From: Halothermothrix sp. DTU029
GTDB lineage: Bacteria; Bacillota; Halanaerobiia; Halanaerobiales; DTU029
Assembly: GCA_001512435.1 (NCBI GenBank)
Contig: LFRS01000169.1
Coordinates: 1-35,914 of the forward strand
Length of the DNA stretch: 35,914 bases
Direction: 5' to 3'
Positions 33,928 through 35,914 of this stretch are shown here, piece after piece. The notes below the pieces were generated by a model. It worked only from the letters and a program-made list of their open reading frames with translations, made no database searches and was not told where the DNA came from. Positions within the stretch are counted from its first letter, which is position 1. Every line of letters starts with the position of its first letter. Both the position numbers and the translations under genes were made by a program.

Positions 33928-34013
33928 AAAATTTTTTAAAGTTATATTTAAAGCTATATAATATATAAAAAATCCATGGAAAATCAAAATCAAAAAAATA
34001 CTTAAAAAATCTC

Positions 34014-34044
34014 TTGACCTTGACGTTACGTAAAGGTGTATAGT
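34014..34044 (+). promoter_or_regulatory. MerR-type promoter/operator with 19-bp spacer
   Basis: TTGACC (34014-34019) and TATAGT (34039-34044) are 19 bp apart, the over-long spacing typical of promoters activated by MerR-family DNA distortion. The spacer holds a near-perfect 21-bp palindrome (34017-34037) with half-sites ACCTT-N-ACGT; 9 of 10 base pairs match about the central T34027. It lies 27 bp before the MerR-family gene, so autoregulation is expected. Confidence 0.85.
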
Positions 34045-34070
34045 TTTATTAGCAGGAGGTGATATAGGGG

Positions 34071-34847
34071 TTGGAATATACAGTACAAAGATTAGCAGAC
34101 CTGGCCGGAGTCAGTTCCCGTACAATCAGGTACTATGATGAGATAGGCTTCCTTAAGCCTGCCCGGATAAATTCATCTGGTTATCGGCTTTATGGTGAAA
34201 AAGAGGTTGACCGTTTACAACAAATTCTTTTTTACCGGGAACTGGAAGTAGAGCTGGAAAATATTAAAAAGATTATTAATGGTCCAGATTTTGATGAGTT
34301 AAAAGCCTTAAAAAAACACCGGGAAAAACTCCTGAAAAAAAGACACCGTCTTGATTTATTAATAGCAAATCTTGAAAAAACCATAGATGCTAAAGAAAGG
34401 AGAATAAAAATGAGTGATAAAGAAAAATTTGCAGGTTTTAAGAAAAGGATGGTAGAAGAAAATGAAAGGAAATATGGTCAAGAGGTTAGAGAAAAATACG
34501 GTGATGAAGCAGTTGACCGGTCTAATCAGAAGTTCTTGAAGATGACTGAAAGGGAATATGAAGAAATAAGAGAACTGGAAAAAGAATTTATGGAAACATT
34601 GTTGACCGCATTTAAGACAGGTGATCCCGCTGGAGACCTGGCCCAAAAGGCAGCTGATTTACACCGCCAATGGTTGACCTTTTATTGGGATAATTATTCA
34701 AAGGAAGCCCATGCAGGAGTAGTCCAGCTCTATGTTGATGATGAACGTTTTAAAGATTATTATGAATCCTATTTTGCAGAAAAACAGGCTGGTATTGCAG
34801 AATTTCTCCGGGATGCAGTGCATATTTATACAGGAAAGGGAAAATAA
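34071..34847 (+). CDS. MerR-family regulator with TipA-like effector domain
   Basis: Transcription activator of 258 aa. The N-terminal MerR winged helix is YTVQRLADLAGVSSRTIRYYDEIGFLKP followed by SGYRLYGEKEVDRLQQI (about 1-70). A long antiparallel coiled coil follows (about 80-115). The C-terminal TipAS-type domain (about 140-258) has the conserved FYWDNYSKEAHAGVVQLYVDD...YYESYFAEKQAGIAEFL. TipA/Mta-type proteins bind hydrophobic or thiopeptide drugs and activate efflux genes and themselves. TTG 34071 has AGGAGGTGA 8 nt upstream. No drug transporter is adjacent; the riboswitch unit downstream has its own promoter. Confidence 0.9.
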   Translation: MEYTVQRLADLAGVSSRTIRYYDEIGFLKPARINSSGYRLYGEKEVDRLQQILFYRELEVELENIKKIINGPDFDELKALKKHREKLLKKRHRLDLLIANLEKTIDAKERRIKMSDKEKFAGFKKRMVEENERKYGQEVREKYGDEAVDRSNQKFLKMTEREYEEIRELEKEFMETLLTAFKTGDPAGDLAQKAADLHRQWLTFYWDNYSKEAHAGVVQLYVDDERFKDYYESYFAEKQAGIAEFLRDAVHIYTGKGK

Positions 34848-34861
34848 TCTGGAAGATTTAA

Positions 34862-34889
34862 TTGACTTGTTACAAAAATATGGTATAAT
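34862..34889 (+). promoter_or_regulatory. Promoter of the FMN riboswitch-ribU unit
   Basis: TTGACT (34862-34867), 16 bp, then an extended -10, TGG-TATAAT (34881-34889). A strong SigA promoter starting about 20 nt before the aptamer. Confidence 0.8.
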
Positions 34890-34915
34890 TATTTATGAAA
34901 AGAAAATAACTGATA

Positions 34916-35034
34916 TATCTTCAGGGCAGGGTGAAATTCCCGACCGGCGGTATAGCCCGCGAACTCTTTATTTTATAAAGAGCTGATCTGGTTAAATTCC
35001 AGAGCCGACAGTATAGTCTGGATGAAAGAAGATA
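34916..35034 (+). ncRNA. FMN riboswitch (RFN element)
   Basis: The conserved RFN core is readable in order: TCAGGGCAGGGTGAAATTCC (34921-34940), CGACCGGCGGTA, then GCCCGCGA. A variable hairpin CTCTTTAT/ATAAAGAG follows (about 34964-34982), then CTGGTTAAATTCCAGAGCCGACAGT, AGTCTGGATGAAAGAAGAT. The closing P1 helix pairs TATCTT (34916-34921) with AAGATA (35029-35034). It senses flavin mononucleotide and represses the riboflavin transporter gene downstream. Confidence 0.97.
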
Positions 35035-35052
35035 CTTTTATTGTTTATCCTG

Positions 35053-35079
35053 TCCCTGATTATATCAGGGATTTTTATT
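35053..35079 (+). terminator. Riboswitch-controlled terminator
   Basis: TCCCTGA (35053-35059) / TCAGGGA (35065-35071) with a TTATA loop and a T-rich tail, 18 nt after the aptamer. The upstream arm can alternatively pair with aptamer bases 34921-34930, giving an antiterminator. Confidence 0.9.
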
Positions 35080-35115
35080 TTTCTATAATAAATATTATAG
35101 TGGGGGGAATTAAAG

Positions 35116-35670
35116 ATGAATGTAGGCTCAAATACCATGAGCAAAGGAAAAATAAAAACAAATAAGATGGTAAAAGTATCTTTGCTGGCAGCTATTTCTT
35201 ATATATTGACCTTTATAAGAATACCCTTACCCTTGTTTCCTGAATACCTGAAACTGGATATTGCAGAACTACCAGCTTTGATAGGAGGTTTTAGCCTGGG
35301 TCCAGTATATGGTATAATGATTGTCCTGATCAGAAATATAGTGGATTTCCTAACCAAAACTACAACTGGAGGTGTGGGGGAACTTTCTAATTTTATCGTC
35401 GGAAGCTCTTTTGTTATAACTGCCAGTTTAATTTATAATTATAACAAAACCAGGAAAACAGCCCTTATAAGTGTTATTTGTGGAACCCTGGTCATGAGTT
35501 TACTGGCTTTATTATCAAATAAGTATATAATTTTTCCCTTATATGGTCTTCCTGCTGATTGGGGTTTTTTGTTTACCTTTATTTTTCCTTTTAATCTGAT
35601 TAAAGGTGGGGTAAATAGTGTGGTGGTTTTGTTAATATATAAAAAGATATCCAGTTTGCTAAAAAACTAG
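35116..35670 (+). CDS. ribU: Riboflavin ECF transporter S component RibU
   Basis: Membrane substrate-binding subunit of an energy-coupling-factor transporter for riboflavin, 184 aa with about six helices. It has family features such as KVSLLAAISYILTFIRIPLP near the N-terminus, KLDIAELPALIGGFSLGPVYG, TTTGGVGELSNFIVGSSFV, and FPFNLIKGGVNS near the C-terminus. The FMN riboswitch directly upstream confirms the vitamin. It needs the shared EcfA/A'/T module encoded elsewhere. ATG 35116 follows GGGGGG by 8 nt. Confidence 0.95.
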   Translation: MNVGSNTMSKGKIKTNKMVKVSLLAAISYILTFIRIPLPLFPEYLKLDIAELPALIGGFSLGPVYGIMIVLIRNIVDFLTKTTTGGVGELSNFIVGSSFVITASLIYNYNKTRKTALISVICGTLVMSLLALLSNKYIIFPLYGLPADWGFLFTFIFPFNLIKGGVNSVVVLLIYKKISSLLKN

Positions 35671-35689
35671 AGTGGATTTTCAGGAACCC

Positions 35690-35718
35690 TTGTATCTATA
35701 GCCTAAATATGATACAAT
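35690..35718 (+). promoter_or_regulatory. Promoter of the structured leader after ribU
   Basis: TTGTAT (35690-35695), a 17-bp spacer and TACAAT (35713-35718), with TG one base before the -10 (35710-35711), i.e. an extended -10. Transcription would start near 35725, just ahead of the folded element. Confidence 0.55.
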
Positions 35719-35751
35719 AACCATATAATTATTTTTGTAAAATCTTATTAT

Positions 35752-35821
35752 AATCTCTCCTGAAAAGCAAATTTGATCCTCTGCTTTAGTCTTTTATAAA
35801 GGCTATAAGGAGGGATTTTTT
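35752..35821 (+). ncRNA. Candidate structured leader or small RNA: three-way junction ending in a T-run
   Basis: The outer helix pairs AATCTCTCCT (35752-35761) with AGGAGGGATT (35808-35817), 10 bp with one U-G. Inside are two hairpins side by side: AAAGCA/TGCTTT (35764-35769 / 35782-35787) and AGTCTTT/AAAGGCT (35788-35794 / 35798-35804, one U-G). Six Ts follow directly (35816-35821), so the whole fold could act as a terminator. I cannot match it to a riboswitch class I know. It may be a branched terminator for ribU, an attenuator for the next gene, or a small RNA. Confidence 0.45.
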
Positions 35822-35832
35822 ATGTAAAATAT

Positions 35833-35861
35833 TTGCCTGTATTACTAGTTTTACTTATAAG
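35833..35861 (+). promoter_or_regulatory. Possible promoter for the gene at the right edge
   Basis: TTGCCT (35833-35838), 17 bp, TATAAG (35856-35861), 28 bp before the ATG at 35889. If real, the edge gene does not depend on readthrough of the structured leader. Confidence 0.4.
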
Positions 35862-35888
35862 TAATAATAAAGGATGGAGGCTATAGAT

Positions 35889-35914
35889 ATGGTTAAGATC
35901 AGTAAATTGTTTAC
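35889..35914 (+). CDS. Start of an unidentified gene (truncated by window edge)
   Basis: ATG at 35889 is preceded by GGATGGAGG (35872-35880) at a suitable distance and the frame stays open to the edge, reading MVKISKLF. Too short to identify. Confidence 0.5.

Follow-up and report, generated by a model that had tools for sequence, protein, structure and literature searches.

On balance, the leader of a MATE efflux gene in Halothermothrix sp. DTU029 appears to be a transcription attenuator, one that has kept the terminator half of a leader-peptide attenuator of the CplR/VmlR type. It lies at the end of the window, by which is meant the whole stretch of DNA analysed (35,914 nucleotides), itself a whole contig in an assembly of 187 contigs. 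Transcription would start at the leader's own promoter, ∼27 nt before a long-looped, terminator-like hairpin with a Shine-Dalgarno (SD) sequence in its stem. The majority of transcripts would stop at the T-run around position 35821, leaving a ∼95-nt RNA; the MATE gene would be expressed only from read-through transcripts, and premature termination would limit its expression. A putatively complete, antibiotic-responsive form of the leader precedes the MATE orthologue of a genome from another genus (G005) and the ABC-F genes of six Halanaerobiales genomes, and we infer that the genus hairpin descended from such a leader with the loss of only its 5′ part. Because the terminator half alone is kept, the window leader would be a MATE attenuator with constitutive down-tuning or an unrecognised input. 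It is not filed as a full member of the antibiotic attenuators, since it has no ATG ahead of its stem and the 5′ arm stays mostly unpaired when the 3′ arm is kept out.

Leader anatomy

The elements of the leader and its surroundings are as follows, in window coordinates:

34913-35037, FMN riboswitch (Rfam, 127.4 bits)
35116-35670, + strand, upstream gene, ECF transporter S-component-like (NCBIfam matches below cut-offs)
35690-35718, + strand, promoter TTGTAT-17-TACAAT with TG before the -10 (sequence; -35 and -10 region invariant in the three genus genomes)
35752-35761, + strand, 5′ arm of the outer stem, AATCTCTCCT (fold and genus alignment)
35762-35807, + strand, loop region, with helices P2 and P3 in the window genome only (fold; no conservation in congeners)
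35808-35817, + strand, 3′ arm of the outer stem, AGGAGGGATT, containing the SD AAGGAGG at 35807-35813 (fold and genus alignment)
35816-35821, + strand, six Ts, the expected termination site (sequence; invariant in the genus)
35822-35827, + strand, ATG TAA directly after the T-run, a presumed start (sequence)
35876-35880, + strand, SD of the MATE gene, GGAGG, outside the hairpin and within an invariant 13-nt run
35889-35914, + strand, first 26 bases of the MATE gene, ended by the contig edge (orthology to the G001 and G002 genes)

The promoter reads as a -35 of TTGTAT (35690-35695), a 17-nt spacer and a -10 of TACAAT (35713-35718), with the TG at 35710-35711, and the transcript is expected to start near 35725, ∼27 nt ahead of the stem. 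It is not a strong consensus promoter: its -35 has three of the six consensus bases, and the promoter scan, which requires four, does not list it, finding six promoter-like sites in 34000-35914 against a shuffle mean of 7.1. An 11-nt inverted repeat, TATCTATAGCC / GGCTATAGATA, links the promoter area (35693-35703) with the region of the MATE SD (35879-35889); it is present in the window and in G002 and absent in G001.

The MFE fold of 35715-35825 (-20.8 kcal/mol) pairs the outer stem (35752-35761/35808-35817), P2 (35765-35769/35782-35786) and P3 (35787-35794/35798-35805). These are the three helices drawn in the preliminary description of this DNA, and the promoter, hairpin and six-T run that it reported are all present in the sequence. 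The stability of the fold is only a little out of the ordinary (z -1.91): 9 of 200 shuffles give an equally or more stable structure. The terminator scan admits only loops of 3-8 nt and omits the hairpin because of its long loop; it lists another site, the terminator-like hairpin at 35052-35072, which follows the FMN riboswitch ahead of the S-component-like gene.

Set beside the parts of a leader-peptide attenuator, the window leader has, by sequence and fold, an intrinsic terminator of stem and T-run. Neither a uORF between promoter and terminator nor antiterminator or anti-antiterminator pairings were found, and the SD in the stem is not that of the regulated gene: it heads the ATG TAA. The corresponding start codon opens a frame of 7-10 codons in G001, G002 and G005, and in the ABC-F leaders described below the start codon after the T-run is the start of the gene itself.

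Rfam at gathering score finds only the FMN riboswitch at 34913-35037. Even a permissive search of 35671-35914 returns three matches with E values of 0.63-4.5, all far below the gathering scores.

Conservation within the genus

The genus set consists of the window genome (G000) and two further genomes, G001 and G002, whose contigs (L070, L074) are listed as MAGs of Halanaerobiales and of Halanaerobiaceae in the named collection. Both share with the window the gene order S-component gene, leader, MATE. The three-genome alignment has 121 identical columns out of 317, and its five longest invariant runs fall on recognisable elements: AAGGAGGGATTTTTT (15 nt) is the 3′ arm with the T-run, ATGGAGGCTATAG (13 nt) the region of the MATE SD, AATCTCTCCT (10 nt) the 5′ arm, TAAATATG (8 nt) adjoins the -10, and CTTGTAT (7 nt) covers the -35. 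The spacing from TCTCTCCT to AGGAGGGATTTTT varies, at 46 nt in G000, 34 nt in G002 and 28 nt in G001, and neither P2 nor P3 forms in folds of the inter-arm stretch of G001 and G002. Promoter, outer stem and T-run thus look selected from their sequence, while P2 and P3 are not conserved. As judged by the alignment, the conserved object is a promoter plus one long-looped, SD-bearing, terminator-like stem.

A conserved three-way junction is rejected on the absence of both inner helices in the congeners, whose loops differ. The preliminary description had suggested a new regulatory leader with its own promoter and a three-way-junction fold, or a small RNA; conservation in the genus supports a regulatory leader and its promoter, and a new class of three-way junction is not supported. 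The relatives offer no covariation for the three-helix fold, an outcome that the preliminary description had itself named as a refutation, and that of the outer stem, treated below, is weak.

Neither a leader peptide nor an antiterminator was found in the genus leaders. In the window leader the 27 nt ahead of the stem contain no ATG; the candidate uORF frames of G001 and G002 are unconserved and have no SD, leaving no conserved uORF in the genus. No competitor for the 5′ arm was found in the three leaders, where its mean pairing with the 3′ arm left out is 0.17, 0.25 and 0.25.

The MATE gene and its neighbourhood

The contig ends 26 bases into the MATE gene, for which an alternative in-frame ATG lies at 35874, and a search of the window genome at E 1e-60 for another piece of the same gene returned only a 35% paralogue. 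The family of the gene is known through its orthologue in G001, whose protein passes the NCBIfam matE cut-off (282 bits against 147.4), and makes it a gene of putative resistance type. The contig of G002 (L074) ends its MATE at 146 residues, in a frame with one in-frame TAG, which marks either a broken gene or an assembly error. The upstream S-component-like gene is taken from its riboswitch to encode a riboflavin transporter.

In G001 (L070:3-5193) the MATE gene is followed on the same strand, after 40 nt, by a gene that passes the HflX cut-off (425.8 against 216.75 bits). Behind hflX stand a TetR-like regulator, whose NCBIfam matches are weak and fall short of the cut-offs, and two frames resembling ABC transporter genes by eye. 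The array is a possible drug-response operon. An hflX gene occurs near MATE at one of the 35 loci compared (G001, L082), where flanks of at most 1.5 kb miss genes lying farther away.

Outside the genus, the MATE orthologue of G005, a different genus of the same family, is 79% identical over residues 2-320; it has no adjoining S-component gene, which is on another contig. Across the phylum, a search at E 1e-110 gave 38 MATE matches in 37 of 398 genomes. None of the 30 loci read (∼52-74% identity; three with less than 170 nt of upstream sequence) shows the 3′ arm with a T-run; CTCTCC alone occurs in two, and the stem model has a single match, at E 0.49.

Fuller leaders before ABC-F genes and the G005 MATE gene

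A strict pattern of the stem matches 4 of 101 related genomes, and its reversed control none. Three of the matches are those of the genus before MATE; the fourth, in G015, stands before an ABC-F gene, and its T-run runs directly into the TTG start of that gene. The best NCBIfam match of the G015 protein is ‘ribosomal protection-like ABC-F’, at 246.7 bits and below the cut-off of 380. Its frame (L055:568-1500) encodes only 310 aa, whereas in the six remaining genomes the frames stay open for 417-585 aa; either a broken gene or an assembly error would account for this. Relatives of this ABC-F gene occur in seven of the 38 genomes of the order, and six of the seven loci (L087-L091 and L093) have a common leader upstream of the gene. 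The exception, L092 in G027, has a T-run hairpin before the start and a profile E of 0.12, and was excluded from alignments A2 and A3.

The common leader has the parts that the genus leaders lack. It contains a predicted leader peptide of 8-9 residues and of the M-x-I-N-T-L-T-I-Q type (for example MRINTLTIQ, MIINTLTIQ, MRISTLTIQ and MFKYTLTIK) and a strand complementary to the peptide codons that is able to pair with the terminator region instead. The terminator 3′ arm, with the gene SD inside, follows 181-195 nt after the peptide SD. The 1:2 pairing is reached by only 0-1 of 1000 shuffles in all six ABC-F leaders. The 2:3 pairing is clear in four of the six (0-4 of 1000 shuffles) and unremarkable in G015 (139 of 1000) and G021 (78 of 1000). 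Over seven leaders the 1:2 helix is 97.8% paired; its score for covariation is matched by 63 of 500 shuffles, so its support comes from conservation and not from covariation.

The seventh leader is that of the G005 MATE gene, which is homologous along its length to the ABC-F leaders (E 7.3e-08 with their profile) and has the predicted peptide MPNIALTTR; of 1000 mononucleotide shuffles, 20 do as well as its 1:2 pairing and 18 as well as its 2:3 pairing. A model, R1, finds the seven leaders among 59 class genomes at 81.6 bits against 40.1 for the next match, a separation of the same seven leaders on which it was trained. Its matches in G036 (40.1 bits), G010 (35.4) and G000 (25.3) have by eye no such leader peptide. 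Rfam returned only two FMN riboswitches on nine related loci (L089 excluded), and no match on five of the six ABC-F leader loci. In layout, the leaders before the ABC-F genes and before the G005 MATE gene fit the published CplR/VmlR attenuator scheme, and they are candidates for antibiotic sensing.

Possible relationship of the window hairpin to the ABC-F terminators

At the level of sequence, support for a link between the window hairpin and the terminators of the ABC-F leaders is marginal. The ABC-F profile finds the window hairpin at E 7 and that of G002 at E 5.7, and leaves G001 unmatched at E 10. Run the other way, the genus hairpin profile places two ABC-F terminators first outside the genus, G034 (E 0.0012) and G033 (0.005), followed by L073 (0.0074), an unrelated stretch selected by the pattern, then L078 (0.021) and G005 (0.044). 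A second model, R2, trained on the ten leaders, gives these ten and one orphan hairpin at least 47.3 bits in the 38 genomes of the order, and everything else at most 35.9; two of the lower matches were read (G019, G032), and both resemble ordinary terminators. Outside the order, R2 scores 38 bits at L073 and 33 bits at L079. The orphan, in G004 (L184:533-614; G004:C1:1141732-1141813), is an SD-bearing terminator of 47.3 bits; it comes after another gene, and no long frame directly follows it.

Covariation of the outer stem over the ten sequences is weak: 44 of 500 shuffles reach its score, a count that is approximate, as MAFFT shifts the G015 row by one column in alignment A3. In a hand-set table of the arms, 8-10 of the ten sequences are paired at each of ten positions, in a register chosen by hand. 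A search of the species-level genome collection with the strict pattern gave 15 stretches, two of them of this genus. The remaining 13 are scattered; several fall within reading frames, and some lie directly ahead of one. A relaxed pattern, CTCCTN{12,42}AGGAGNNATTTTTT, was uninformative, with 11 matches of mixed context in 9 of 38 genomes against 9 in the reversed control.

A further trace is found in G005, where the T-run is followed by a mini-ORF, MLVMKFKEWI (L083:1287-1319), that resembles the starts of ABC-F genes. Against six ABC-F starts it scores 29-46, and the scores of 41 and 46 exceed those of all 567 other ATG starts (maximum 38); its mean over the six, 35.8, is reached by five of the 567. 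The resemblance suggests an ABC-F gene as the source of the G005 leader, or as a gene that arrived together with it, and the mini-ORF is a possible fossil of an ABC-F gene lost from before MATE. A fuller history can be sketched, though it is improbable in its entirety: a single antibiotic-sensing cassette of promoter and attenuator in Halanaerobiales, with the M-x-I-N-T-L-T-I-Q peptide family as its own, would have passed from an ABC-F gene to a MATE operon (MATE-hflX in G001), taking with it the first ABC-F codons as the mini-ORF fossil seen in G005. The genus would then have lost the peptide sensor, with promoter, terminator stem and SD still under selection, and the SD-bearing terminator would answer a different signal.

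Alternative explanations

The principal alternative is that the genus hairpin, as an attenuator or an SD-bearing hairpin, arose independently, and that its likeness to the ABC-F terminators is convergence. This is conceivable because an SD, its complement and a T-run amount to few letters. Hairpins of the same pattern do stand directly before reading frames elsewhere (L073, L076 and L079 among the 15 matches), L073 and L079 reach 38 and 33 bits with R2, the relaxed pattern is no more frequent than its reversed control (11 against 9), and the profile support for the ABC-F link is marginal. However, homology to the ABC-F leaders extends along the whole G005 MATE leader, and R2 separates ten leaders and the orphan from the rest (at least 47.3 against at most 35.9 bits), the ten being its training set. 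Since the MATE genes of G005 and the genus are orthologous, with a hairpin ahead of both, descent needs only the loss of the 5′ part. Convergence is a lesser but serious contender. Less likely again is that the hairpin terminates the upstream S-component gene, with the MATE promoter downstream of it. The hairpin does follow that gene, behind which the scan shows no other terminator-like site; a weak site, TTGCCT-17-TATAAG, is visible by eye at 35833-35861, unlisted by the promoter scan; and in G004 a similar hairpin, scored at 47.3 bits by R2, comes after a different gene. Yet a promoter conserved in the three genus genomes separates gene from hairpin, none of the conserved runs falls on the downstream promoter-like site, and in G005 the hairpin precedes MATE even though a different contig carries the S-component gene.

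A small RNA acting in trans would account for a promoter and a terminator-like hairpin ∼95 nt apart, but the parts that could pair with a target, the loop and the 5′ end, are unconserved, and the position before MATE is kept in another genus (G005); we consider this very improbable. An RNA of ∼95 nt would itself be an expected by-product of termination at the hairpin. A new riboswitch or other ligand-binding three-way junction is more improbable still: the three helices of the window MFE fold speak for it, whereas P2 and P3 are absent in both congeners, the stability is ordinary (9 of 200 shuffles as good) and Rfam has no match. That the window element is a riboswitch is largely refuted. The attenuator reading is the one that we retain.

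Novelty and comparison with known systems

Attenuators of this kind are already known. New, as far as Rfam and open-licence papers go, are the Halanaerobiales peptide family, the use before MATE and the reduced form; the M-x-I-N-T-L-T-I-Q family was not found in either source and may be in print elsewhere. If the attenuator reading is correct, MATE efflux genes would join the targets of ABC-F-type attenuators, and the passage from the full leader of G005 to the reduced leader of the genus would be a natural series in which to study how an attenuator functions once its leader peptide is gone.

The published systems are compared here as excerpts of their reports describe them. In the ABC-F gene cplR of Clostridioides difficile, the gene's SD is sequestered in a terminator hairpin, and an antiterminator can form once an antibiotic stalls the ribosome on a uORF of three codons (PMC10201436). 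The window leader likewise has a T-run terminator hairpin with an SD in its stem, in the leader of a resistance-type gene, and the Halanaerobiales peptides begin (MRI...) much like the uORF consensus of cplR, MR[I/M]. In contrast with cplR, no uORF or antiterminator was found in the window, the stem SD heads ATG TAA and the gene is MATE (PMC10201436). The ABC-F gene vmlR of Bacillus subtilis works like cplR, with the uORF MIN and a separate SD-sequestering hairpin, neither of which the window leader has (PMC9226507). Its own promoter and premature leader terminator are shared with the window, and its logic of anti-antiterminator, antiterminator and terminator matches the ABC-F and G005 leaders (PMC9226507).

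The hflXr gene of Listeria is under an antibiotic attenuator with a similar leader (PMC6310831). In rli80-hflXr of Listeria monocytogenes, premature termination occurs before an hflX-type gene, and the hflX of G001, putatively of the resistance type, lies behind MATE; rli80 has a 14-residue uORF with an RLR motif, and the window has no uORF (PMC6310831). Leader attenuation of a drug-efflux operon, as proposed here, is described for bmrB-bmrCD of B. subtilis and for mef(E)/mel of streptococci (PMC4191407, PMC4335068). Those operons encode ABC or MFS-type pumps and have leader peptides, and they are likened to the window leader by description and not by sequence (PMC4191407, PMC4335068).
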